This document shows positions 3,001 through 51,800 of a DNA stretch of 64,000 nt, piece by piece. Position 1 is the first letter of the stretch, and each line of letters starts with the position of its first letter. Where the stretch lies: assembly GCA_963930775.1 (NCBI GenBank), contig OZ005705.1, forward strand, positions 4,092,001-4,156,000, in the 5' to 3' direction. This stretch comes from Cliona cf. orientalis (Eukaryota > Porifera > Demospongiae > Clionaida > Clionaidae). The notes under the pieces were generated by a model, which was not told where the DNA came from, did not search any database, and worked only from the letters and a program-made list of their open reading frames with translations. The position numbers and the translations under genes are program-made.

Positions 3001-6000
3001 ATTATGAGTGTATAGGTTCAGCGTTATGAGGGTGCTTCCACTGATTATGGACCATACACGCTGGATGCCTACTTGCAAGAATTTGGGAAATTGGCAGTTT
3101 TATTAGCAAAGGTTCATAATCAGTCCATTGTTGTGCACGGCTATGCATGTAACTAGTTCTTGCAGGGAGGCAAAGCAGAACCTGGTTGCACTCCACCTTA
3201 CTATCGGGATAAACAGTGGGCTCTGCATACTCCAGTGGTCTTCGATGCTGTCCCTTCTGGAAAAAAGTTTGGTGATGTCAACACAGATGCCAACAGTAGC
3301 TATAAGTTGGTAGGCCTAGATATATGTATGTGAAAATATTTTGGTTATCATAATTATTATCAATATATCATGCAGAATGAGTCAGTGGTTGTGGAATTTT
3401 GGGCTGGAAATCCTCGCAATAATTTAATGGTAAATACTTATACTCTTAACACCCCTCAGTCTCTACTGATGCAACCAAGTATTGGATGTGGTTACATGTA
3501 TATTATCCAAGGGCACAGAATGTTATATTAAATTGTGTACATGTATATATAGACAGGAAAGACCTTCCTTACTGTTGAGGTGAAGAACAATTCTCAGTGG
3601 ATAGTGGTGCATACTGATGCATCGTGGGAAACAAAGTGAGAATTACTGGCTACAAAATTAAATATATTGAAGATTATGAGATACTCAGTGAAAACTGAAC
3701 TCTTTCAGTATTTCATGTACCGTATTTTCCCGCTATTAAGCGCATGCGCTTATATCTCCACAGGAAGAAAATCTGCGCTTAATAACAAAGCGTGCCTAAC
3801 AGCGAGATGCGCCTAACTAAAAATAGCTACATCAAGAACGCATGTGCGTTCGTGGTATCATTTAAGGGGCATGGCCAATCGATCGATCGTTCACATTGCT
3901 GCATTCCGCCCAGGTCGAAATGGCGTTCATTGCTGGAAAAACCTGAGAATCGACAGTAGCCATCTTGATTTTGACTAACTTGAAAGCCCTGGGCAAGCTA
4001 GCAATGGACTCTGTAATTCAAGTTTTTGTTTAATTCAAATATTTCTCATAGATTTCGAGATTCTATTTAAGTGGACTACACTGTAGCAAGTGCTTAGGCC
4101 AACAAAGTAGCATGCACGCGCTTAACGAATATGCGCTTATAAGCGAGATGCGCCTAATAACGAGAAAATACGGGTATCATAAGTGATGATAGCCTATCTA
4201 TATATACCAGAGGTCATGCAGTGCAAGTAGTAGTGGAACATTTTATTTGCATGTATATTAAACAATATAGTTATACTTTATGATCTTTGCTTAGGTTTTC
4301 TTGGAGGCATACCAGTGTTATTTTGGGTGAGAGCCTTGCTACTGTGACATGGGACATTCCCTCAGATGCTATCCCAGGCACATATCGTATCCAACACTTT
4401 GGTTACCACAAGGAGCTAGGAAAGAGTAAGACTTAGTGTAATCATTTACTTCGACTCTCAAAATGCTGATACATTCAGCCTCATTCCCGGTCGCTCTTTC
4501 CACCGTTTATTGCATGTACTTAAAGATGGGGAGTAGCTGTTAATCTTTGGAACAAGCCCTAGTTAGTATTATAGTCTTACATAATAATTATTATAATACA
4601 TGTTCATTAATATATTATATACCATATAGCGGGAAGTTTTCAAGGGTATTCGTGAAAAGTAAGATTTAGCCTCCAGATTTAAGTTTCATGGGTCTAGATT
4701 TTGTGGCTCTTGACGATTGCACTTGCCACGCCCCGTTCGCCATCATCAAGTAAACCTACCGATGACTGTCACTGAAGTGACAGTAACAGAAATTTTCAGT
4801 CTCATACTATGTTCGATGATCGCAGAGACTCAACAGATATGTTCGATGATCGCAGAGACTCAACAGATTGGAGGCAGATGCCATGCGTTTTGACCACGAT
4901 CACATGCACACTCCGGCAACTTTACCAGACGACCTTTACCTACTGTAGCAAATTTTCGTGGGGTGTAAATTTTGTGACTGTTAGAGCAATCATGAAAATA
5001 ACGAAAATTACCCCCCCCCCCCCCCCATGAAAGTTACCCGCTATATGGTATTAGGTATTATGTGACTGGATTTGGGAAAACTCTATGGTGACCCAGAAGG
5101 GTCATTTCCAAGCGGCAACGAGCGGAGGTGCACCTGCGCTGTGGCAATGAGCGGAAGTGCGCAGACTGGAGCGGCAATGGACAGCCATGCCCGGCAATCA
5201 GCGGAAATTCTCGGATTTGAGCGGAAACAAGCACATTAAGTCGGAAACTCGCGGATAAGTGCGGCTTTGAGCGGATTATCCCGGAAACTCGCGGCAAAGG
5301 GCGGAAACAAGCGGATTGATGTGGAAAAGAGCGGTCATTGGTGGATTCCATCGGAAATTAGTGGCGGCTCTCGGAGCGGTGTGGCAATGGGTGGAGTAAG
5401 GCGGAAAAGAGCGGCAACTGGCGGATTCCATCGGAAACAAGCGGATTAGTCGGGAAACTAGTGGATAAGTGCGGCTTTGAGCTGATTAATCTGGAAACAT
5501 GCTGATTTTTGTGGGATTAATGTCACATCTAACTACTTGTACCATATTTCTTCTAAAAATTCAGCCCTTCTAATTATTTGGCACCCTTTACCGAATGATT
5601 GAATGTAGTCTCTAATTTTTCGGCAAAGGTCATCATGCGTATATGCTATAAATGGGGAATGGAATGCGCACGCAGACAGAATGATGAATATTAACCTCTA
5701 TAAATTCGGCGAAGCTAAAGCAATATTATTTTCATGCTGAATTTTTAGAAGAAATACGGTACCTACTACTAGGTATAATTAAATATTATCAAGTTCGAAG
5801 TTGTCTCTTCCTCAGATCCCAAGGAACAAAATAAAATATGAAAATTGATATCACAAAGCTAGAGAGGGGCTTGCCCCCTGGAAAAACAGCCAGCTTGATG
5901 ACTGATAATCGATAGCTGGTAGCTATGAACAAGCCTCTAAAATTCGCACTCTAAATAGCATTTTTCACATCGATAATTGGCCTAAAACAGTAGCCCGCTA

Positions 6001-6194
6001 TCTTAAATAATGATGGGTGTGGTTAAATTTTCACGCACAAGACAGTAACGCCCATTAAACGTTTGTGGGCGTGACTATCTTGTGCGTGCATGTGACTATT
6101 CTTCACGCTATTGCATTGTGCTAGACAACTTAGCTAATAATTATTTATAGGACCAGCAGTTACTGTCACTAACACTGGCAGAGTATATAATTCG
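1..6194 (+). CDS. ASAH2: Neutral ceramidase, C-terminal half, multi-exon, 5' end outside window
   Basis: Neutral ceramidases hydrolyse the amide bond of ceramide to sphingosine and fatty acid at the cell surface or outside it. Exons read from the sequence: 1-79, 1195-1402, 2816-2954, 3022-3111, 3166-3309, 3376-3429, 3553-3635, 4295-4425 and 6151-6194. All have AG/GT borders and the phases fit at every junction, giving about 324 residues. Family landmarks are GFSFAAGTTDG at the start, KPILLDTGE, TMSGRRLR, SNTYSDYVTTFEEYQ, YGPYTLDAYLQEF, and near the end the Ig-like part TDASWETK and GTYRIQHFG. The N-terminal catalytic half lies upstream. The last exon (PAVTVTNTG) ends at a good donor, so a short final exon is probably missing or unseen; reading through would reach a stop at 6336. 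The introns carry several MITEs. Family call firm, exon 9 less so. Confidence 0.88.
228..670 (-). repeat. hAT-like MITE copy, inverted relative to the copy at 46784-47079
   Basis: Lies in ceramidase intron 1. Read on the minus strand it starts CAGGGTTTCATTCAGGATTT and ends in a C/G-rich tract followed by TAAATGCACAG. The better-bounded copy at 46784 has the same start, the same middle (exchange of AGAAGCCACCAGAA and its complement) and ends in CACTG, which is hAT-like. A 17-base C run occupies 255-271. No clear target duplication is seen here. Confidence 0.5.
710..1157. repeat. MITE with TACCGTA-type inverted ends
   Basis: The left end reads TATTCGCTCGATCAGACGCC and the right end contains its complement followed by TACGGTA. 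The interior has repeated short blocks such as GGCTACTATTCGAGAG. The subterminal blocks resemble the element at 36979-37407, so this is probably a diverged member of that group. It sits in ceramidase intron 1. Confidence 0.6.
3718..4176. repeat. MITE, TACCGTATTTTC ends with reiterated AAGCGCATGCGCTTA units
   Basis: Inverted ends TACCGTATTTTCCCGCTATT and the complement ending GAAAATACGGGTA, flanked by TA. Both arms contain repeated blocks of the type TTAAGCGCATGCGCTTAT. Related arm motifs occur in the elements at 30664-31099 and 56447-56820. Located in ceramidase intron 7. Confidence 0.75.
4620..5050. repeat. MITE, TACCATATAGCGGG ends
   Basis: Left end TACCATATAGCGGGAAGTTT, right end ACCCGCTATATGGTA, so it is TA-flanked with inverted ends. 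It contains a perfect direct duplication of about 30 bp (4809-4838 and 4839-4868, GTTCGATGATCGCAGAGACT core), an exact GACGACCTTTACC motif at 4928-4940 and a 16-base C run at 5011-5026. A truncated relative starts at 10270 (TACCGTATAGCGGG). Confidence 0.75.
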
Positions 6195-6733
6195 GTATGT
6201 ATAGCACGTATGTTTACGTCATGTGCTAGCACGGCCAGCATTGTAGGCACGCATGCGCACTTGGTACATGCTGATTGCCGGATTACTCAGCCCGTTTCCA
6301 CTCAAAGCCGCACGTATCCGCCGAGTTTCCCCGACTAATCTGCTTGTTTCCGCTCAATACCGATGGAATCTGCCAGTTGCCGCTCTTTCCTGCAATCAAC
6401 CGCTTGAATCAGCCTTACTCCGCCCATTGCCACACCGCTCTGAGAGTTGCCACCAGTTTCAGATGGAATCCGCCAATCACCACTCTTTTCCGCATCGATC
6501 CGCTCGTTTCCGCCCTTTGCCGCGAGTTTCCGGGATAATTAGCTCAATGCCGCAGTTATCCGCAAGTTTCCGACTTACATGTAATGCGCTTGTTTCCGCT
6601 CAAATCTGAGCATTTCCGCACATTGCCGGCCAGGGCCGCCCATTGCCACTCCAGCCCGCGCACTTCCGCTCAATGCTGAAGCGCAAGTGCGCCTCCGCTC
6701 ATTGCCGCTCGGAAATGACCCTTCTGGGCCACC
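5086..6733. mobile_element. Foldback-like inverted repeat with arms of 10-bp phased units
   Basis: The left arm (about 5086-5515) and right arm (about 6270-6733) are inverted copies whose outer ends read TGGTGACCCAGAAGGGTCAT and the near-complement. Both arms are built from degenerate decamers of the form GCGGAAACAA, GCGGATTGAT, GTGGAAAAGA and so on. In the left arm about 38 units stay in exact 10-base register from 5141 to 5520. The organisation resembles Drosophila FB elements, whose arms are also short tandem repeats, but no homology is claimed. No transposase frame is present in the middle. The middle instead holds a small MITE (5540-5761) and the likely ninth ceramidase exon. Two separate opposite insertions are therefore an alternative to one element. 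Confidence 0.75.
5540..5761. repeat. Short MITE of 222 bp
   Basis: Terminal inverted repeats of about 26 bp: TACCATATTTCTTCTAAAAA at the left and TTTTTAGAAGAAATACGGTA at the right, each with the adjoining GCTGAA/TTCAGC. It carries a degenerate GACGACCTTTACC-like stretch near 5622 on the minus strand. It lies between the two foldback arms. Confidence 0.8.
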
Positions 6734-7600
6734 ATAAATCTCTGCATGTCACATGATCTGAACGTGCAAACAGCGCAATGCATATGCTTTTAGTACCTCA
6801 GGTCAAAACTGTCAAAGTCCAGTTTTTGTCATATTCATATCAAAGAACCTTTCTACTAACCTTTGCCACCACCTACGGAGGGTGAACGTAAGTTACCAAG
6901 ATGAAATAAACCTTCATTTTGACCTACCTATACAGCTGCCGTACACGGAGCCCATTACTATGGGCACTAATTAGAATTCCCTATCTAGATACAGCTAGAT
7001 TCATCGAACTACTGTACATTCGCTCACCTTTTTAGCTTCTTGGACATCAAGGAACAATTGGCGCTCGTTCTCAACATCGAAATCCGACTCTTGCTCAATC
7101 TTTACGTTCATTTCGAACAGCTCCGCCCAGGTCCATTTTAATTGATTTCTGGTTCATGCGTAGTATACGGAAATGCCATACGCATGCATAGCAATGCCTT
7201 TGGACCGTAATTTCTCGATTATTGTGGGTGTGGCGCGATCGCAAACAAAGTGCTCTATGCGAAGCGTGCGATCGGTCTGAAACTTGGAGGTAGGTTAGCT
7301 CTATGGTAGAGATTATCAAATACATGTATGTAGCTAACTAAAAAAAATCAGAATTCGCTATATGCTGGGTTTTCCCAGATACGGTCACATATTGTGCCTC
7401 CAACAACTACTGTTTTTGCAGTAATATGATAATAGCTTGATAAGGATCGTAAATGCTATGAATTGTTTATAATAGTATACTAGGTATAGACTGAGTACAA
7501 GTGATCCGTGAGTGCTTCGTGCAAAATGTTTCCCCAATCACACTCTACTTTTCTGAGATTGATGATGCAACCTACGGGGTAGTTCAACGAAATTTTGGGG
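6734..7600. other. Mostly unassigned interval between foldback arm and next repeat
   Basis: Apart from the exon candidate at 7028-7111 on the minus strand, no open frame with coding character and no inverted-repeat element was recognised. GCATGCG-type palindromes near 7183 could mark a promoter, but this is weak. Confidence 0.3.
7028..7111 (-). CDS. Candidate first coding exon, unknown protein
   Basis: On the minus strand an ATG at 7111 opens a 28-codon exon ending in a clean donor, AAG|GTGAGC. The peptide is rich in acidic residues (EQESDFDVENERQLFLDVQE) and looks like real coding sequence rather than chance. The frame also stays open upstream of the ATG (residues WAELFE), so this could be an internal exon. 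I could not find the next exon: lower coordinates are occupied by the foldback arms and ceramidase exons on the other strand. No family recognised. Confidence 0.4.
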
Positions 7601-19921: not shown

Positions 19922-20638
19922 TTGATGCAGGGAAGAGGCCTGGCAGAGCAAGCTCAACAGAGTGAGAAACGACAGGTACAGCTGATGCACGAGTTGCAAG
20001 AACAGCATCAGCAGCAGATGGCGAGAATGTCTCAAGAATATGAGCGTTGTTGGCATTCTCCGAATACAGCACAAATGGAGACATCTGACGCTGTGACAGC
20101 TTTGGAAAGCAACCTTTCAGACGCGAAATTTGTGATGCAGGGTCGCATTGGTGATACAGAGGTCAGACTCGGACAGTTGCAATCATGGCAGGAGGAGCTG
20201 GCTGACAATCAGAATGACTTTCAAGCAGATGTACGGGAAGAGTTACTTCGCATCAAATCTGCCCTAGAATCGTCCACTTGTCACGAGCCAAAGGAGCAGC
20301 TGCCTATCTGCAAGCCACTGTCGACCACCTTGACCTGCAAACCAGAGTCATCTAGTATAGATGACTCGGGAAAACCTGGGCCTAAGCCATTAAGTGTAAC
20401 TGCACCTGCTTTTATTCCTTCTGCAGGTTCCACGACACTGTGCAGTGGTGGCACTGCAGATGTGGTAACGGAGGGAAGTGGCCCAACCAATGTGCAGCGG
20501 CCATCTCCATTTGATGGGAAGAGCACCTGGGGCAGATCTCTGCTACCATTACTAATACCACTAATACTATTTATAGTAGTAATGCCCCAAACTTGTTTAA
20601 AAATGGATCTGTTTATCATACAGGAATCAGTTTGCTAG
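19922..20638 (+). pseudogene. gag fragment of the Gypsy element
   Basis: The first 100 residues are a glutamine-rich coiled coil (QSEKRQVQLMHELQEQHQQQ), followed by a proline/serine-rich linker and the start of the capsid region, PSPFDGKSTWG. Capsid sequence normally continues from there, but the frame turns directly into an unrelated hydrophobic stretch. This indicates an internal deletion of most of the capsid and nucleocapsid region. It overlaps the protease frame by 46 bases in another frame. Confidence 0.7.
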
Positions 20639-21342
20639 TGGAAGGAAATATTGATGGCAGACGGTGTTCTATCACAATTGATACTGGTAGTGATATTACC
20701 ATTATAAGATCTGATCTGGTCGAAAAAGGGAACATTGACTGTAACCCTGGGATAGAGTGGATGAGCACTGTTACGGGAGAGAAAGCTCCAATTCACGGCC
20801 GAAGGAGACTGACGTTAGAAATTGGGAGTCTCCAGATACAACATGACATGGTTGTTGCAGGTATCAAAGATGAATGTATCTTGGGTACTGATTTTCTCAC
20901 TCCTAACAGATGTGTAGTGGATCTGGAAAACCGCGTGCTCATCCTCAATAACGAACAAGTTCCACTGTTGAGAACGAAGTCGACTACACCAACCTGTAGC
21001 AAGGTGACAATGGACATCACTATTTATCTACCTCCGATGTCTGAGGCAGTTGCCTGTGGAAGACTACTCCACAGATCAGAGAATATGACTTGGGGAATCC
21101 TTGAGCCAGATAACTTGCAATCTAAAGCTCTTGATGGCCTACTAGTTGCCAGAACACTAGTAGATCTTGATACAGGAAAGGTTCCAGTCTGCCTACTAAA
21201 TCTGACCGACCAGCCAAAAAGAATAAAAAAGAAGGCAATTGTTGTAATTTGTAATCCAAAAAGTGTTTATGTTGACCACACTGATGTGGATTGTTGTAGT
21301 GGTTGTTGCTGTGGAGGTGAATGTAAAGAAATTAAACACTAA
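20593..21342 (+). CDS. Retrotransposon aspartic protease region
   Basis: A 249-residue open frame. The active-site triad is in SITIDTGSDITII near residue 28, and the second conserved block, CILGTDFL, is at about residue 95. Such proteases process the element polyprotein and act as dimers. The frame ends in a cysteine-rich segment just where the MITE of 21336-21714 is inserted, so the natural link to reverse transcriptase is cut. The start shown is the first ATG and need not be the biological start. Confidence 0.8.
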   Translation: MFKNGSVYHTGISLLVEGNIDGRRCSITIDTGSDITIIRSDLVEKGNIDCNPGIEWMSTVTGEKAPIHGRRRLTLEIGSLQIQHDMVVAGIKDECILGTDFLTPNRCVVDLENRVLILNNEQVPLLRTKSTTPTCSKVTMDITIYLPPMSEAVACGRLLHRSENMTWGILEPDNLQSKALDGLLVARTLVDLDTGKVPVCLLNLTDQPKRIKKKAIVVICNPKSVYVDHTDVDCCSGCCCGGECKEIKH

Positions 21343-21714
21343 GTAGACTAAGTAGGAAAAAAAAGATTTCCTGCGCGGAAAATGTTTGGGGGAATTGGGA
21401 GCACTTGGGGAGATAATTTTTGTACCGGCACGCAGAATGGGTCGAAACACGAGATTTGACATGAGAAATTTTTGATTTACACCTTAGAATTAAAGTTACG
21501 GCCCTTTGAAGTTTCCACATACGTTTGTATAGGAAGCCATGTATTTGCAATGTTTTCCGCCCATGCGCACATCAACATGACGACCATTATCCACTTCGGT
21601 CAAAATTGATGTATAAGCTGCCTGCTTACATTGTATAGCTCTATTATGCATCCAGCTCGACTATGTGGTGGTTTCTGGACAATTTTTTTTCCTGCTTAGT
21701 CTGTGGTCTCCTTG
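21336..21714. repeat. MITE, CACACTAAGCAG family, inserted in Gypsy pol
   Basis: Left end CACTAAGTAGACTAAGTAGG followed by an A run; right end TTCCTGCTTAGTCTGTGGTC. The body matches the copy at 12808 (TTGGGAGCACTTGGGGAGAT) and holds the motif variant GACGACCATTATC at 21579-21591. It separates the protease frame from the reverse transcriptase. Confidence 0.8.
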
Positions 21715-21939
21715 AAAAGGAATTAGAGAAAATAATTCCTTGTGCAGTCAAGTATTCTTGTTCTTGTACTGATGACGTGCGAGACAGTTACAATATTTGC
21801 GATGACAAGCGAGACAGAATACAAACAAGTGGGGGTGCATGCAAATATGCTAATTGTGTTCAGTTTAATTCCCTAGGTTCTCTACAGGAGGCACTCGACA
21901 ATCACTGTTGTCGCCACAGTTGGATGATCTGTATACCCA

Positions 21940-23582
21940 AAACACAGCTACTCTGAATAAAGAAGCACAAACTACTACTCCATGAATTTGCAGATGTGTT
22001 TTCCGAGGGACACGACGACTTCAGGAAAAAAGACCTGGTGAAACACAATTGACACTGGTGTTGCAGCTCTATACGTCAGCCACCCCGCAGACTTCCACTT
22101 AGCAAGAAGGAAGAAGCACAGAAGGCTGTGCAGGACATGAACCAGCAAGGAGTAATTCAGCCATCATAGAGTGCTTGGTCGTCTCCAGTAGTACTCGTGA
22201 AGAAGAATGATGGTGGAATCCGCTTTTGCATCGACTACCGGAAACTCAATGATGTAACCATCAAAGATTCCTACCCCTTGCCGCATATCGATGACTCCAT
22301 CAAAGCATTATCTGGTGCCAAGTGGTTCTCCACTCTGGACCTGAAGTCGGGCTATTGGCAAGTGGAGCTGGATGCCAAGGACAAAGAGAAGACGGTATTT
22401 TCTATTGGGAGGGGTCTCTGGGAGTTCACAGTTATGCCTTTTGGATTAGCCAATGCACCTGCCACTTTCGAGAGGCTCATGGAACAGGTCCTGGCTGGGC
22501 TACCGTTGTCTACTGCACTTGTCTACCTTGGTGTTCTGGTGGCTTCGGAACAGGTCCTGGCTGGGCTACCGTTGTCTACTGCATTTGTCTACCTTGATGA
22601 TGTTCTGGTGGCTGGAAGAAGCTTTGCTGATCCGATGGCGAACCTCAAAGCCGTTCTACAGAGATTCAAGCAGGCCAATCTGAAGCTATCACCGAAGAAA
22701 TGCTTCCTGTTCCAAAGAGAGGTGAGGTATCTGGGTCACATAATTAGTGAGCATGGGATAGCTACTGACCCAGAGAAAACAGAAGTGGTAAGATGTTGGC
22801 CCATACCAACTGGCACAAAACAGCTTCGTAGTTTTGTTGGTCTTTGCTCTTACTACTGCAGATTTATAGTTGGATTTGCAGATGTTGCACGGCCACTCTA
22901 TGACAGCATGAAGGGAACCTTCCACTGGACCCCTGAGTGTGATAGAGCCTTCCAGAAATTGAAGCATCTACTGACCGAAGCACCTATCCTTGGCTATCCA
23001 ACGGTTGATGACCCTTTTGTGGTTGATACAGATGCCAGTCTTGTGGGAGTGGGAGCGGTTCTCTCACAAATTCAGGATGATAAGGAAAACGTGATCTCTT
23101 ATTTTAGCCACAGGTTGAGTAAAGCTGAGAGCAACTACTGTGTAACAAGGAGAGAGCTGTTGGCTGTGATCAAAGCCCTCTGGAAGTTCCACCCCTACCT
23201 CTATGGCAGACCTTTCACTCTACGCACGGATTATGCTGCTCTGCGCTGGCTCCTAAACTTCAAGTGCCCTGATGGTCAGACGGCAAGATGGCTACAGGAG
23301 CTACAGCAGTACATCTTTACTGTGGAGCACAGGCGCGGCTTGAAGCACAATAATGCTGATGCTCTATCAAGACGTCCTTGCCTACGAGACGACTGCAAGC
23401 ACTGCCACCGATTGGAGGCTAAAGAGGAGCTACAGAGGGAAGAGGAGCATAGTGAGTACTTCTCTTGTAGGTTTGTAAATCTCTATGAGGGGGAAGTGAG
23501 GGCTTGGAACCAGGAGGAGCTAAGGGCAGCACAACAAGGAGACTTGGACCTCAAGCCCCTACTTCACTCTACAGCCAAGTAA
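21940..23582 (+). pseudogene. Reverse transcriptase and RNase H of the Gypsy element
   Basis: The upstream part (21940-22196) is shifted and interrupted by stops; the main frame runs 22197-23582. Reverse transcriptase landmarks are FCIDYRKLN, FSTLDLKSGYWQ, TVMPFGLANAPATF and YLDD at about residues 131-134. RNase H landmarks are DTDASLVGVGAV, ESNYCVTRRELLAV and NADALSRRP. A 66-bp tandem duplication (22481-22546 and 22547-22615) repeats the segment leading to the active site. In the first copy the two aspartates are replaced (YLGVL); the second keeps YLDD. The insertion of 22 residues in the palm probably abolishes activity. Confidence 0.88.
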
Positions 23583-24723
23583 CAAAAGCTTATTGGATGC
23601 AGTGGGAGAGCCTCGAGTTGAAGGATGGAGTCCTCTACCGCCTCTGGGAAACTCCTGCAGGAGATCGAGTCGTGAAACAGCTGATCCTCCCCAAGAAGCT
23701 GAGACCCAGTGTCCTACAGCAACTCCATTGTTCCTCGACAGCTGGTCATCTTGGAGTAAACAAAACTCTAGGAAAAGTACGGGAGCAATTCTACTGGGTA
23801 TCATGCAGCAAAGATGTCAAAGCCTTCTGCAAGAATTGTGACCTATGTGCTTCCAGGTAGGGTCCAGCAAGGAAGATACAAGCCCCACTAAGCCAGTACA
23901 ACATTGGAGCACCCATGGAGCGGCTGGCTATTGACGTTCTCGGACCACTTCTGCAAAGCAAACAAAGCAACAAATACTTCTTGATCGCAGCCGACTACTT
24001 CACCAAGTGGGTGGAAGCCTATCCTCTGGTGAACCAGAAGGCAGTCACAGTGGCTGAAGTTTTAATTCGAGAATTCATCAGCAGATTCGGAGTCCCTCTG
24101 ATCCTGCACTCGGCATTTTGAGAGTGCTGTATTTCAGAGATGTGCAAGCTGTTGGGAGTCACTAAAACCAGGACCCTCCCCTTCATCCACAGTCTGACGG
24201 TATGGTAGAATGCTTTAACCGTACCCTTGAGGCTCAACTCTCAAAGTTTGTCGAGGATCACCAACAAGACTGGGATCTCCACCTGCCACTGCTGCTGATG
24301 GCTTACAGGACTGCTGTCCGTGAAGCTACAGGCTGCACACCGGCTTGTCTCATGCTGGGCCGGGACCTGCGGCTGCCTATTGACCTCGTTTTCGGCCGCC
24401 CCGAAGATGAAATGCCCAACACTACTACCATCTTCTCGGAAGAGCTGGGGAAGAGACCGGAGCAGGTGCACGAGTTTGCACGCGCAAATCTGAAAGTGGC
24501 TACTGACAGAATGAAGGAGAGGTATGACTCCATGGCCGAGGATACTCCCCAAGAGAAAGGAGAGCCAGTGTGGGCCTATATTCCACAACGGAAGAAGGGG
24601 ATCTCACCAAAACTGATGCATCCTTGGAAAGGCCCCTACCTTGTCTTCAAAAGGATCAATGACTTGGTCTACTGTGTGCAACTCACTCCAAGAAGCAAGC
24701 CCAAAGTCCTCCATTGTAACTGA
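23504..24723 (+). pseudogene. Integrase of the Gypsy element, in three broken frames
   Basis: Frame 23504-23860 carries the zinc-binding region (HCSSTAGHLG with CKNCDLC) and ends at a stop. Frame 23915-24121 carries the first catalytic aspartate (LAIDVLGPL) and stops where the second aspartate block (normally a D-N/Q context) is disrupted. Frame 24202-24723 carries the glutamate helix (MVECFNRTLEAQL) and the C-terminal segment TGCTPACLMLGRDLRLP. The core is therefore present in order but disabled by a deletion near 24115-24140 and two frameshifts. Confidence 0.85.
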
Positions 24724-42800: not shown

Positions 42801-45800
42801 GTATACTTAGCATAAAATTAGCTCATACTTGGTCAACATAGTTTCCTCCAGTGGCCATGCTGAGATAACCACCACCAGCACCAGAACTTCCCTTCGTTCC
42901 AGTGCTCATATCAATATACCCAACTGATTCACGATGGCTAGATGGTTTAGCATGTCCATGTGGCTGAGTCTGATGAGGTGTAGGATCTGGATATATAGAA
43001 TACAGGAGAATTCTCTTCCAGTCATATGTAGAATCCTGCGATTATGCACCCCCCCCCCCCCCCCCCCCCCCCCCCCGTGCATGCTATATAGCATTAGGGA
43101 AAAGTGGGGATGGGGTTTATTCACGGGATCGTTACATTTCCGCGTGACGACCATTACCGACCATTGAATGCCACGTGGGCCTGCGATCTCTGTACTTTCT
43201 CTGGCTGTTTGATGGACAAAACTCGAGAAAAATGACAAAGTAATGCACCTATTAATATTATGCCCCACTGTCCCCTGTACGGTGGGCTGACAGGGAATTT
43301 GATGTTTTCTAAAAACAAATGCTCCCCTACAGGGGCAATATTTTCGAGTCAAAATGCTAGTGTAAAGAATGCAGTTTAACCCTTGGGTTAAACGAAGTTA
43401 ATAGGAATGATCTTCATGGGGGTGTGGGCTCCAATGGCATTGCATGACAGAACTTGTGGATGGGTAAGGGTCGCCAGGGCTGGAGGGCCGTGGAGTGTGT
43501 GGCAGAGCCTGAGCATGCGCACACTAGCAGAGTTATTGGCGGCCTTGTGGCTACATGTACAACGTTTGGCTCCGTAATTTTGCGAATCAGTCTCTATCGA
43601 AGAGAGCACAAGTGGAGCTTACTCTTAACGGACCCGAGTGAAATAGAGATGAGTGAGTAAGAGGAGACTAGTCAACTCTCGGAGGAGGTGATCCATGCGG
43701 TACAGGAAAGGATCTTAAAAAAGCTGCAAGTCCAATTGGAAGCTCAGTACAAAGTCAAGGAGGGAGGTAGGTAGGGCTTGCGTAGGGGGAAGGAGGCATT
43801 AAGGGGGTAGTATCACGTGAGGGTTACTACAGTCTTGGGGAGGATAGCAGGAGGGCATGAACCTCGCACAGGTTGCGAGGCCCATCAGTCTGATATTGCC
43901 AGAAACGTAGGAAAGCAGGGTGAGCTCTCACAGGTTGCGAGCCAAGTACGGCCCAATGGAAGGAGGCTCACACAGGTTGTGTCAGATTCTGCGAGGGGAA
44001 GGCAGCTATGGGCAGTTAGGAACTGCCAGGGGAAGGGAAGCTTACGCAGGGGGCAGTGAGGTACTGCCAAGGGAAGGAGGCTCACACAGGTTGCGAGGAG
44101 AGGCAGTCAGACACTGCCAGTGGTGGGGAAGTTACCCAGGTACTGCCAATGGACGGAGCCTCACATAGGTTGTGAGGGGAGGCAGTCCGGTACTGTCAGT
44201 GGAAGGGAAGCTCACATAGGTGGTGAGGAGAGGCAGTCAGGTACTGCCAGTGGTAGGGAAGTTACCCAGGGGGGCAGTCAGGTACTGCCAATGGACGGAG
44301 GCTCACACAGGTTGTGAGGGGGACAGTCCGGTACTGCCAGTGGAAGGGAAGCTCACACGGGTTGTGAGGAGGGGCGGTCATGATCAGGTACTGCCAGTGG
44401 AAGAAGTCTCACACAGGTTGAGAGGAAAGGCAGTCAGATACTGCCAGCGGAAACGAAGCACACACAACTGGGGCAGTTACTGCCAGTAGAAAGGGGGGTT
44501 CACACAGGTGGGGGGAGAGGCAGTTAGGTACTGCCAGTGGAAAGGTGGGCTCTCACAGTTGATTTGAGTCGGGAAGAGTAAGGGGTGGGGAGGTACAACC
44601 AGGGGGGCAAACCTCACAGAGTGTGGGAAAGCCACAAACAGCTGGAGAGGAGGAGGGAAGCTTCGGGGAAGGTGTGAGGAGGGAAGTCAGGGATTGCCTA
44701 AGGGTGCTCTCTAAACGGGGAAGATCACAGCTGGGGGTGTGAGGGCCTAGGGGCAGGGGAGCAGGGGGAGGCTCCCTAGCGTTCTAAAATGGATTACCAC
44801 ATCCTATTCCACTTCCCTTCTAATCTTTAGTGTCATTGGGAAAGTTCCCATCAGAGGGCGATTTGGAGGGAGTCCCTACTTTCTCCAAGGACGGCTCCAG
44901 TCGTCGTACTGATGCCGGAAGCACCAAGGGGAAGGAGGAAGGGGCGGTGGCGGAACAGGGAACGAGTACTCTGATGTCCCTTTTTGCCTCACAGTCGGCC
45001 CTTGCCTCAGCTGCCCAGGCGGCTAGGTGATGGTCTTGGTTCGGTCACAGCAAAAGTCCATGAAAGAATGTGGAAATGGGAATTTGTAAACATGGAGGAG
45101 TTTCGCCCAAGATCAACCCAGGAGAAGATTACCCCTGGGAATGACACGGAGAAGCTGGTGGTCTTTCCAGGAACCCTGGAAGTCTCACAACCCTGGAAGC
45201 GCCCAATAACAGGTATCATTACATGGGTTCAATGCTACGCGCGGTACACAGCTGGGATGGCAGAGAAGTACCCAGAGGCAGTACCAGGCTTCACGAGCCA
45301 CCTAATTGTGGTGTTGAAGGCGTATTCGGAAGTGGAAGGCCTGTGGTGGAGGGACTATGATGTGGCGTTTCGAAACAAGATGGCCGCGCAGGGGGTGAAG
45401 AAGTGGACAGGAATGGACGTATCACTCTACCAGGACCTGGTGGATTCCAAGCCCCACTGGAGTGCAACATCAGCAACAGTTTCCCAGTCAGCAGGGGAGC
45501 AGAGGAGGAAGGGACCAGTGAAACGTCACGCAGCTGATGGTCATGAGAAAGTCTGCTGGCTGTACAATGACAGTGTTTGCTCTTATAACCCATGCAAATT
45601 CCCGCATTTATGCGAGACATGCCTTGGTCCTCATCCGAAGAGGGCCTGCGCTCGCAACGTGGCCAGGAGACCCACGGGTCCACCCAATGTTGGTACCTAG
45701 TTGAAAGGGGAAACGTCGGACATCCAGTAGTTGTAATCAATTGAATTGAATGGACAATAAGAGTAATTTAGTTAGCAGGAGTCATGTACACCTCGATGGT

Positions 45801-48800
45801 TGTGGTTAAAGTTATAATCATTCAGAATCGTTAATGTGGGATACAGCACGACTTGCATGTGTGCATGGCATAAATTTAGAGGTACCGTAGATCTAGGGGA
45901 AGCATGCCTTAACCATACACAGGCTGTCCACTGGTTGGCTTCTCCACCTTCACTGTTGGTGTAGGTGTGACTGTGGTAGAACACTGGGCTGGTGGTGGTC
46001 AGTCTTGTGTTTTATAAAGAGGAGGGGAAGAATATAAGGGGAGGGGGGTCATACAGATAGCCATAGGTTATCGGGCTGAAGCGGGGGTGGGTAGGAAAGA
46101 GGAAGGGTTTTGTGTGGGGTGGTTGTAATCTGCCCATCTCTGTAGGTGCTGCTCCAATGTTAGAGGTTCACTCGACACAGGCACTATTGAAGTTGGCATC
46201 ATTTACACCACTGGAGGCGGAGAGCACACAGGTCCCTTGGTCCTCAATGGTGACCCCGTACAACACTGCTGAATGGGAAAGAGGTTTGGCCTCTCATCCA
46301 GACCAAAAGTTTGCGAGATATGTGTGCTCAGGAATCCGAGAAGGGTTTCGCATTGGGTATGACTACAATGAGCCTCCATTTCCCAGGCTCCGACTTCGGG
46401 CGGGATCACTCCGAATGGACTAGCGTGCACCTGTGGAAAGTTTCCACTCTTCAATGGCCCCACTAATCGCTTTGCCTCACACTCTGCCCCTAAATATGAC
46501 TCTACCACCTGCCTGTGCTCCAGGGCTGACTTCCTGTTCCTTTTCGAGGATCTGCTGCAGTGCTGACAGTATCCCCACGCGGCAAAAGTATTAATGACGG
46601 CATCAACAATGAACTCTGTTCAGTGAGTTACCTTCCGATTGATGAGGTGGCCTCCTGGGTGGTACAAGCAGGGAGGGGTGCACTAATGGCTAAGTTTGAT
46701 TTGAAGTCAGCCTACAGGCAAGTGCCAGTACATCCACATGATCGCAAACTGCTGGGAATGGAGTGGTAGGGACACATCTATGTCAGGGTTTTATACAGAA
46801 TTTTTCATCAGAGGGGGGAAATCATAGCGTGCGGCAATATACTCAAACTAGGGGGGTCTGGGGGCATGCCCCCCCAGGAAGATTTTGAAATTTATGACCT
46901 CTGAGACTGCTTCTGGTGGCTTCTGAGACTACTTTCACAAGCAAAAAGATTGATTATTGGACAAAAAACTATGAGTATTATTATGATAGTTGGCAAATTT
47001 CAGGGGGGGGGGGGGGAAATGCCAGGCAGGGGGGGGGGGATATCCCCTGGTTCCCCCCCCCTCTAAATAAATCACTGTATGTGGATACCACGCTGCCATT
47101 CGGCCTCAGGTCACCTCCTACAATCTTTAGTGCAGTGGCTGACGCCTTGGCCTATATGATCCGGCAGAAGATACGTGACAAGGTGAAGCTAGGCCACTAC
47201 CTAGATGATTATGTGGTGGTTACTAGTGCTGACTGGAAGGTGGCAAGGGAGGCCTTGTCATATGCATAGGAAGTTTGAGAGACTACCGGGTCTCCCGTAG
47301 CAGAAGAGAAAACAGAGGGCCCGGCCACGGAAATCACACTGTTGGGTATCGAACTTGACTCAGTGAAGAGGCAGCTACGGCTTCCCTCAGACAAGCTGAG
47401 AAAAATGCGAGAGTTGGTGGAGAAGTGGAGCAAACGCAAGGCCTGCCAGAAACGTGAATTACAATCGCTGGCCGGCTATCTGTGCCACGCTTGTAAAGTG
47501 GTAAGGCCCGGGAGACGGTTCCTGCGGGGCGTGTTCAGCTTGCTGTCTCAGTTTCGGCGGGATGATCACATGATTCGCTTGAATGCAGCATTCCGTGCTG
47601 GTCTGGAGTGGTGGCATGCATTTGCTAGCTCATGGAATGGGATTTCCATGATGGATGAGAGTGTAACATTCCCTGAAGCACAAGTTTGATGGGATGCCTC
47701 CGGCAGCTGGGGGTGTGGGGCACTGTGGGGAACGGAGTGGTTGCAAATAGCTTGGGAAGACTGCAGGTGGTTTGAAGCTACCCCCATTGCAGCAAAGGAA
47801 CTGCTGCCAATTATACTGTCGGTTGTAGAGTGGGGCATGCGTTGGCACGGTCGGAGGGTTCTGTTTCACTGTGATAATGAAGCGGTAGTTGCGACATTAA
47901 AAGGTGGCTACAGAGTTAGCTATCCAGGCAGTTCATGTGCCAGGGGTTGAAAATGGGGCAGCAGATAGTGTTTCAAGGAATAATTTGAAACGTTTTTTCT
48001 CTCTCACGAAATGAGTATATATATCGGGGCAGAGACGTTATCTGACATTCTGTACTAAACTGGGCATCACCCCATTTCCATTGGTGGAACTCCAGTTGTG
48101 CAAGTTTGTGGCCCATTTGGAGGAAGATGTCCTTCAGTTCTCCTCGATAAAGGGATATCTGTCAGCTATTCGGCGCTTGCAGATTCTTGGAGGAATGGGA
48201 GATCCGTTTGTAGCCTCTTGGCCATTGCTAGAGGCAGCACTCCATGGTGTCAAGCTTCGCAGGGCAAAGTCCAAGGAGTCACGCCCCCGTACAAGGATGC
48301 CGGTTACCCCCACAGTGTTGCACAATCTTAGGGGTGTATGGGAGAAGGAAGGACAGAAGTTTGATAACATCATGCTCTGGGCAGCATGCTGTATGTGTTT
48401 TTTTGGCTTCCTTCGTTCAGGGGAGGTATGCGTCCCATCCATGAAGGAATATGACGCCGAGCAACATCTGAGTGTTGGAGATGTGGCATTGGACTCTGTA
48501 AAATCTCCCTCTCTAGTTAGGGTTTCAATAAAGGCCTCAAAGACGGACCCCTTTCGCAGGGGTATGAACGTGTTCCTGGGAAAGACAAACAATGACCTGT
48601 GTCCGGTGGCAGCAGTGGGTGCGTATCTGGCCTGTCATGGGAGTAAACCAGGGCTTTTCTTTATCTTCCAGTCTAGCTCACCCCTGTCAAGAGAGATGTT
48701 TGTTCGTCGTGTGAGGGCAGCTCGGAGTGAAGCAGGAGTTGAGGCAACCCAGTACTTGGGTCATAGCTTTCGAATTGGAGCGGCCACGGTAGCTGCAGCT

Positions 48801-51800
48801 GTTAGGATTGAAGATTGTATGATCAAGGCCCTGGGACGGTGGGATAGTGCTGCTTACCTGTCGTACATACACATTCCCAGGGAGCGGTTGGCTGCAGTGT
48901 CAGGGAGGTTGGCCCAGTGATGTCGTGTACCCAACTCTTACTGTTTTCCAGTTTGTATACGTTAATATTATGTTGTGTATGATTTGGCTGTTGTCAGATT
49001 ACAGTAATAATTTCTCTAATACTATTATGTGCTGGATGGTTGGGGAAGGGCTATAGGGCTAGGGGGGCCGGGTGGGGTTATTCCTGTCGGCTTGGGGGAG
49101 AAGCCTTAGGGGCTCCCTTTTGGTGGCCGCTGGGAGCCTGGGGGGTACTGAGCATTAGTGGGCTCCCCATGTTGGCACCCAAGCCTGGGGGTGGGTATAG
49201 GGGGCTTGACCACAACCTGATGGGAGTGGGGGCGGAGATTCCCCCCCACGGAGAAATCCCTGGCTACCTTCCGCCAACCCTATAGCTTTGGTGAGGTGTT
49301 GTCTGAATGAACTGTTAAATGCAATTTAACCCTTGGGTTAAAAGGAATGATCTTCATGGGGGTGTGGGCTCCAATGGCATTGCATGACAGAACTTGTGGA
49401 TGGGTAAGGGTCGCCAGGGCTGGAGGGCTGTGGAGTGTGTGGCAGAGCCTGAGCATGCGCACACTAGCAGAGTTATTGGCGGCCTTGTGGCTACATGTAC
49501 AACGTTTGGCTCTGTGATTTTCCCGCCCGCCTGCCGTGTCAGAGAGGGTAGGGTGTTAGTTCTTAGCACTTGCTTTCTCCACTGGGCTCCTACCAGGGTT
49601 GCCTAGTGTGACTGGGGCTAGGGGTAGGTTATGGTGGCCGCTGGGAGCCTGGGGGGCAATGAGCATTAGGGGGCTCCCCGCGTTGGCCCCCAAGCCTGGG
49701 GGTGGGTATAGGGGGCTTGATCACAGCCTGATGGGAGTGGGGGCGGAAATTCCCCCCCCCCCCCCCCCCCCCCACGGAGAAACCCCTAGCTACCTTCCGC
49801 CAACCCTTTAGCTTGGGTGAGGTGTTGTCTGAATGAATGAACTGTTAACAGATAAAATCATTTCTTTCATTGTATTTAGGTGATTTTCTGATTTATACTA
49901 GATAGCTCAGTGATTTATAAAAATCAAAAGCTCCACCCCTAGGGCGAGGTCAAGACGTCCATTCCCCCAACAATCCCCTGTCTTCCCCCACCTATGCCCG
50001 TACAGGGGGTAGTGGGGCATAACATGTACTGACAGGTGCATAAGGCTTACTATATAATATGACACAAATAGCTAATTTGCTAGCTGTAGCTACTGTTTTT
50101 ATTGCCTTATGTACTCTAAATATCTACATTTTACTGTTAGTGAGGGGGGGCTTATACACGAGATAAAACTACCTATGCAGAAACTTGAGCTAACATTGCA
50201 GGGGGGGGGCAAAATTGCGGGATTCTACAGTATAATCAAAACTTAAAGTACTAAATAAAATTATCACTGATTGTCATTCTCCATATCTATTCTATAAACC
50301 AGGAGCATATGCTGCTTGCGGTAACTATCCAAACGAAATTGGCCAGATATTGATATCTAAAAACCCGGAGTGAATGCTTACTCACCACCAATCTTCTTTT
50401 AGCAGCTGTGCACAGTGTTAGAGTGAAATAAATGCAAACATTTGAAGCTGGGTTACATACCTTGGCCCCCCTCCCATGGGCAGTTCACTTTACATGTGCA
50501 TTAGGCTCAAACAAGGGGCGGGCTGACATTCGAGGTATCATCTATACTGTGCTCTATGAAGCACACAAAATGGTGCGAATAGTGGGTGACATCTTAGGTT
50601 CAGCATCCTGTACCATGGCAAAGCAGTGTTATTTGCAGCTCACAGTGTGTGCGTGCAAATCAGTCTCACCACATCATCAGGCTGAGAAAATCTTAGTCTT
50701 GCAGACGAGGGCCCACTATGGATTGTCTACCCATCCCAAAGTTATGCTTCAATATCCTGCTAAGGTCTAAGACTTATTTGAAAGAGTGCCCACCTAGCGC
50801 AAAATACATGCACATGCTATAGTTTACATTGCTGCACATGAAAAGGACACACATTTCTGCAGTTTCAAGTACAATTCTAAAATTTATATTCAACCACTGC
50901 AATTTAATTAAGACTTTGGGTACAACTATGATCATAACAGTTGGATACAATTTAATTGGTTGCTCTCTCAGAACACAGTGCATCACTACCTTTCAGCGGT
51001 TTAAGAAAATTTCCCGGAACCATTCCCTTCCTGCCTTTCTCATCTTTGGCAATATACCAGTACATCTCCTGTATACAGACATATCAATACCCATACACTG
51101 AATAACTGCTTCTTTAAAGGTTCTGCAACAGAAATTGCACATAATATTATGTAGGAAGCTGATGCATACTTGCCAAAGCACTGTGACTAACAGGAGTTAA
51201 TTGCTGGGTTGTCCCCGCTTGCCCTGTTCTATCTAGAGTTCCGCTGGTTCATGACCAGAGTTAAGTGTTGGTGGAAGGGCCTGTGTGGTAAGCTGGCTGC
51301 CGGACCTCTACCATGCACCGTGCTGGGGGCCCACCGAGATGGATGCCGAGCGGGCCCCCAGACCCCGTGTGTCGGCGGCGCCTCCTAACGCAGAAGGCTT
51401 GGGGTCCACATAACCAGGGGGAGTGGCGCCACTTCCCCCACATCCAACATCACCACACAGGGCTAATCACGCCGACTATGTCGGCGGAGGTAACAAAAAT
51501 AAGCAAACAACCAAAGAAACAAAAGAGCACACAGCCCCACACACCCACATACACACACACACGCACGCACACACACCCACAACCATACGACCATACAGGA
51601 GGAGGGAGGGCGGGGCAACGAACGATTCTCTGCACTCCCTCTTCCTGATGCTTCAGCTGAGTTAAGCTGGTAGCCAAGCCAAGATACCCAAGACCTGCAG
51701 TCAAGCAGCTTTATGTAGGACGGGCTACTTCCTGCCAAACCGGTTGTAACCTGCTGAGGGCCATGTATCGATATGGCACCGAACTTATGTTTGGCGCCAT

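Follow-up and report, generated by a model that had tools for sequence, protein, structure and literature searches.

Decamer-built arms in a probable non-autonomous IS3EU transposon of the sponge Cliona cf. orientalis

The window analysed here is a 64,000-nucleotide stretch of the genome of the sponge Cliona cf. orientalis (assembly GCA_963930775.1, contig OZ005705.1, positions 4,092,001 to 4,156,000). Near its start lies an inverted-repeat element of 1653 bp (5084-6736, ends TATGG...CCATA) with arms built largely of tandem decamers (Table 1). Its termini, target-site duplication (TSD) and relatives suggest that it is probably a non-autonomous IS3EU element carrying family-specific arrays of putative transposase-binding units. 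An original prediction, made from the letters of the window, had described an inverted-repeat transposon with tandem-repeat arms, and this description stands. The span given there, 5086-6733, located the element, although not its exact ends.

Table 1. Parts of the decamer-armed element, in window positions, and genomic loci of the decamer family
Feature	Position	Strand	Remarks
Left TSD copy, AAACTC	5078-5083		5 of 6 positions match AATCTC at 6737-6742; read directly
Left terminal head, TATGGTGACCCAGAAGGGTCATTTCCA	5084-5110	+	agrees with the right terminus at 28 of 30 bases
Left subterminal array, ~40 decamers, core NCGG(A/C)WW	5111-5520	+	strict register from 5141
Block with an in-register duplicate 210 bp further in	5192-5288	+	75/97 identical to 5402-5498
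Second copy of the 210-bp-offset block	5402-5498	+	
Interior, ~750 bp	5521-6270		27-bp inverted repeat 5539-5565 / 5736-5762; hairpin 6032-6054 / 6066-6088
Right subterminal array, complementary decamers	6271-6710	-	some register slips; z = 14.8
Right terminal head, ending CCATA	6711-6736	-	
Right TSD copy, AATCTC	6737-6742		
Decamer locus A (window element)	C17		
Decamer locus B	C2:5.95 Mb		
Decamer locus C	C19:3.47 Mb		
Decamer locus D	C2:7.42-7.43 Mb		
Decamer locus E	C5:6.59 Mb		
Decamer locus F	C7:5.81 Mb		

Decamer arrays and their copies

Register counts and shuffle tests confirmed the predicted run of 38 consecutive in-register decamers at 5141-5520 and the complementary pattern in the right arm. 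Among these 38 units, the GG of the CGG anchor is in register in 33 and its last G in 37. The exact CGG is present in 23 units, and CGG, TGG or CAG in 34. For phases 1-10, the commonest base (GCGGAAATGA) is found in 28, 28, 33, 37, 26, 19, 21, 14, 16 and 16 of the 38, with information contents of 0.81, 1.05, 1.31, 1.82, 0.84, 0.39, 0.63, 0.16, 0.19 and 0.10 bits.

Autocorrelation, which had been proposed as a check, found the period in both arms. Averaged over lags 10-60, the match is 0.468 in the left arm (5084-5520; null 0.264, standard deviation 0.009, z = 23) and 0.391 in the right (6271-6736; z = 14.8), the null being 1000 dinucleotide shuffles per arm. In 300-bp windows compared at lags 10, 20 and 30, the highest match is 0.514 within the element and no more than 0.35 in the rest of the 64 kb. 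Allowing some misses, GG stays in register for up to 30 units in the element versus 4 outside it; for CC in the right arm the figures are 11 and 4. The strict period claimed for both arms holds for the left one from 5141 onwards, the two outermost left units (CGG at 5113 and 5123) being one base off this register. Regularity is lower in the right arm, which has register slips and a lag-10 match of 0.40 versus 0.43 on the left; its array corresponds to the left arm in two blocks that are 86-87% complementary.

The decamer arms are not confined to this locus. Searches covered 216.8 Mb of genome and skipped common words, and their counts are lower bounds. The left arm gave at least 12 matches at six loci, five of them besides the window element, and the right arm of copy C gave at least 13, at the same six loci. 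Stretches of 10-bp period are present in all six, weakly in copy F, where lag 29 is strongest and lag 10 second over the first 300 bp. The decamers of copies A to E align in one common order, indicating that the array is an inherited family feature, while F has diverged. Neither copies lacking the period nor a single local expansion, the two outcomes that the original prediction had named as refuting it, were seen, given the related arms at five other loci. Identity between arms of different copies is only ~66-88%, and the decamer family is therefore old; the window element itself is read as old, decayed and non-autonomous. Arms have changed largely by whole decamer units: when eight arms, excluding both of F, were aligned in all 28 pairings (not independent of one another), 184 gaps of at least 4 nt were counted. 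Of these, 87 have lengths divisible by 10, including 71 of exactly 10 nt.

Conservation is uneven within the units. At lags 10, 20, 30 and 40, the fraction of matching units is 0.94-0.95 for the anchor G and 0.73-0.86 for the second G, whereas for phases 8-10 it is 0.19-0.42, near chance. At lag 210 all phases are raised, reflecting the one block duplication listed in Table 1. Heterogeneity among phases over the 38 units is strong (chi-square 61.6, p = 7e-10), with units partly dependent through that block. Selection on a short core in a master element would be the simplest account of this core conservation.

Neutral growth offers another account, in which the arms are satellite-like by-products of slippage and unequal recombination in a foldback structure and have no binding role. 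The many inter-copy gaps in multiples of ten and the in-register block duplication are what it would produce. Nevertheless, it appears unlikely: the units are alike mainly in the core, whereas neutral divergence should erode all phases, the core CpG somewhat faster, and families whose units differ carry arrays behind the same head (see below). Growth purely by replication slippage, one of the origins first suggested, is likewise disfavoured, because outside the duplicated block the units have mainly the anchor in common, and if duplicated units decayed neutrally, their CpG-containing core should erode as well. Mismatches among copies affect 79 of 651 CpG sites (0.121), 111 of 1192 other C/G sites (0.093) and 70 of 1276 A/T sites (0.055). 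CpG decay was considered as a strong signal and dropped, the difference from other C/G sites being weak.

Termini, duplications and sister families

Assignment to IS3EU is based on the ends. IS3EU elements have 6-bp TSDs and ends TAYGG..CCRTA (PMC12730594); the ends are described as always TA..TA and the TSDs as usually 6 bp (PMC10045372). The window element has both the TA..TA ends and the fuller TAYGG..CCRTA pattern, as well as a 6-bp duplication, AAACTC/AATCTC. A DDE integrase-core transposase, which autonomous members encode, was not found in the decamer elements by tblastn with four queries, as expected for a non-autonomous family; these elements are accordingly treated as non-autonomous, and their class is read from the termini. 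Compared with IS3EU / GingerRoot elements (Repbase; PMC10045372, PMC12730594), the family is alike in termini and TSD length, and its genome likewise contains integrase-core genes, one of which survives as remnants within a sister element. It differs in being non-autonomous and in its arms of ~435 bp of strict decamers. Long repetitive terminal inverted repeats (TIRs) have been described in several superfamilies. No paper was found in the literature pairing IS3EU with 'subterminal', or joining '10-bp repeat', 'terminal inverted repeats' and 'transposon'; literature on the helical spacing of transposase sites contributed nothing further, and none was found on Spm/TnpA.

A genome-wide search for the outer 20 bp, as the original prediction had suggested, recovered sister elements and their target duplications, although no autonomous decamer partner. 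The 20-bp head pattern with up to 3 mismatches has at least 182 genome matches, against 17 for a reversed-pattern control. From these, 20 loci with a head at both ends were fetched as a sample of sister elements, and 17 carry the TAYGG..CCRTA pair together with a 6-bp duplication (14 at 6/6, three at 5/6). L020, L021 and L022 fail this strict test, the right end of L022 being TACAG.

These sister elements share a near-identical 22-bp head, TACGGTGGCCCAGAAGGGCCAT, and differ in their arms. For example, 30 sister arms whose array starts with GTCCATTAC have a best period of 7.3 bp, with peaks at lags 7, 15, 22, 29, 36-37, 44, 51, 58, 66 and 73, while 10 arms starting with CCATCTTTG have a period of 7.9-8.0 bp. 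The L021 arm belongs to neither group (top lag 16). In both head-sharing sister families the array begins directly behind the head, and the unit sequences are unrelated. A separate IS3EU-like family is represented by an element nested in L033 (1027-2311), which has another head and the duplication CTGGGC. Each of its arms contains TGGTCAAA (at most 1 mismatch) nine times at irregular spacings of 15-35 bp, and, with 40 of 185 candidates scored, at least 41 matches to the arm span nearly its full length at 95-100% identity. Short-unit arrays near the ends thus occur in four families, with strict periods of 10.0, 8 or 7.3 bp, or none.

The left head of the window element also contains a dyad, TGACCC-AGAA-GGGTCA (5089-5104), with TGGCCC-AGAA-GGGCCA in the sister families. 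This is possibly a dimer site.

One genome offers a natural series: a near-identical head, arrays of three strict periods and a separate irregular family. With such a series, effects of helical phasing, of the number of binding sites and of neutral growth could be told apart, and it argues that a 10-bp period by itself is no evidence of helical design. In the original prediction, every CGG was thought to face the same side of the DNA, which suggested, among other possibilities, a protein array along one face or a nucleosome-positioning signal. Helical phasing, as a rival reading, would have the period align all cores to one side, serving a nucleosome or a protein filament. The period is indeed exactly 10.0 along 380 bp and persists in other copies, and the alternation of a G/C-rich core with an A/T-rich stretch in each decamer resembles rotational nucleosome signals. 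However, at 10.5 bp per turn the rotation per unit is 343 degrees for 10.0 bp, 274 for 8 and 251 for 7.3. The decamers would drift by ~17 degrees per unit, so that in ordinary B-DNA the CGGs circle the helix almost twice over 38 units. Since the periods of the families are 10.0, 8, 7.3 or none, one-face binding cannot be a shared principle. The claim is thus not supported as a rule, and helical phasing seems less likely still than neutral growth.

The sister families also bear on a possible host function, in which the arms would bind a host transcription factor and act in expression or silencing, not in end recognition. The core GCGGAAA contains GGAA, as in ETS- or NFAT-type sites, and some of the units contain GGAA. 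Unit sequences are unrelated between families whose heads are nearly the same, so a fixed host factor is no common requirement, and tblastn with four transposase queries found no transposase-like coding in the window element. A host-factor role is accordingly judged quite improbable.

Least credible of all is an assignment to the Zisupton-type KDZ transposons (Zisupton, Kyakuja and Dileera). It was raised by matches to PF18758 KDZ (E = 3.2e-13) and CxC3 (E = 8.4e-13) between the decamer arms at locus D (L012/L013). Matches of equal extent (profile 54-169, 149-aa frame) stand at C1:35811362 and C16:5838161, where no decamer arms are found among the matches listed, and the fragment at D is for this reason read as a nested insertion. 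Duplications are 8 bp in Zisupton and 7 bp in Kyakuja (PMC12730594), as opposed to 6 bp in the window element. With this length and the apparent nesting, KDZ was rejected both as partner and as class. Near the fragment, a minus-strand frame (L012 8685-9488) has a cysteine-rich end that looks CXXC zinc finger-like by eye and has no such Pfam match.

Possible transposase partner and proposed function

Potential partners were sought with the Pfam integrase-core model rva_4, presumed here to represent the likely IS3EU transposase. This model has at least 137 genome matches. One of them lies within the sister element L034 (9245 bp, C4:4593432-4602676, duplication GGATTC), where a second piece of 47 residues is similar to other rva_4 proteins in the region round their second catalytic D. 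Its alignment scores to L043, L036 and L039 are reached by 0, 2 and 4 of 500 shuffles, respectively. The rva_4 protein of L036 has an upstream helix-turn-helix-like region (HTH_23 E = 4.4e-4, under the curated cut-off).

Several observations weigh against the IS3EU assignment and the binding role of the arrays. Both heads are present only in copies A and C, with B, D, E and F lacking two intact ends. The duplication of copy A matches at 5/6. Copy C lacks a direct repeat of its left 6-mer CACAAG, which on the right side is displaced outwards by 2 bp. The rva_4 match in L034 is fragmentary (36 residues including a stop, with E = 6.8e-07 for a 28-aa part), and no Pfam model matches the second piece. 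With three rva_4 proteins and one fragment as tblastn queries, nothing was found in the decamer elements, including the interior of the window element (four transposase queries). Among the matches listed, the left-arm and C19 right-arm searches include no autonomous decamer-armed element, and the decamer arms lie hundreds of kb from the nearest rva_4. No intact rva_4 gene was found inside proven TAYGG ends at 12 loci with 1.5-kb flanks and in two 8-kb stretches, the best duplication being 3/6. Finally, very old duplication combined with biased mutation could be an alternative source of the core-only conservation.

The protein array suggested in the original prediction, with a transposase or a host factor as binder, retains the transposase as its best-supported function, by analogy with other elements, without the one-face geometry. 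Under the IS3EU reading, the 22-bp head (TAYGG...) would be the site of transposase cutting and joining, giving the 6-bp duplication. Behind each head, ~40 short degenerate units would each offer an NCGG core as a recognition site. An IS3EU transposase acting in trans through an N-terminal helix-turn-helix, or an accessory protein, may bind many units weakly and cooperatively. Such binding would load and pair the two ends and provide specificity beyond that of one short site. The spacing would reflect growth of the master element's array by whole-unit gain or loss and block duplication, and perhaps the protein footprint, not helix rotation. Unit binding, the identity of the binder and a benefit to transposition are all inferred.

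Comparable architectures are known. In Drosophila, the arms of FB elements contain 10-, 20- and 31-bp repeats. The likeness to FB that had been noted holds for architecture, that is, tandem-repeat TIRs, and not for family, as the termini and the 6-bp TSD point to IS3EU. The maize Ac/Ds system belongs to the hAT superfamily, which makes 8-bp duplications, and its sites are not known to keep a strict register. Like the window element, Ac/Ds has many short CGG-containing subterminal sites, common to many non-autonomous members, and the Ac transposase binds AAACGG subterminal repeats cooperatively; in contrast, its TIRs are 11 bp long (PMC3260210). Galileo, of the P superfamily in Drosophila, combines a conserved tip (~40 bp) with long family-specific repetitive TIRs, in which the THAP domain of the transposase binds sites that include tandem repeats (PMC3688188). 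It belongs to another transposase superfamily, and the excerpt locates three THAP sites per end, as opposed to ~40 units here. The nematode element Tm1 also has TIRs consisting mostly of short tandem units (13-15 bp, variable number), but with 9-bp duplications and a Phantom-like (Mutator-type) transposase (PMC3169594). For Foldback and Phantom, a role of the repeats as binding sites is described as untested in PMC3688188.

A more far-reaching and tentative suggestion is that the arrays might be a swappable address code isolating families that share one catalytic end, each array matched to a transposase with a changed DNA-binding domain. If so, the head would have remained nearly invariant while the recognition array was replaced wholesale several times, with unit lengths of 7.3, 8 and 10 bp, and unit length would read out the footprint of each binding protein.

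Accompanying genes and other elements in the window

Other genes accompany some of these elements and rva_4 matches. L034 holds a protein-kinase-like gene in pieces on the minus strand (3267-3671 and 4541-4732; Pkinase E = 1.7e-12 for the first piece). In TET-carrying fungal IS3EU families, an alpha-kinase gene has been reported (PMC12730594). A HECT-domain frame (E = 8.9e-07) stands beside the rva_4 match in L046 (1-1008), and is also present in L047 and, by eye, in L037. As L046 and L047 are 94.7% identical over ~3.5 kb, this frame may be a transposon passenger.

Two further elements were noted in the window. At 44984-48920, two frames perhaps belong to a DIRS- or Crypton-like element: the first, at 44984-45697, has no Pfam match, and the one downstream of it resembles a tyrosine recombinase weakly (Phage_integrase E = 0.015, under the cut-off, 48081-48917). 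The stretch 19922-24723 has matches to aspartyl protease, reverse transcriptase, RNase H and integrase C-terminal domains, and is by its matches a Gypsy-type long terminal repeat retroelement, the Gypsy label having been assigned from these domains by the analyst.

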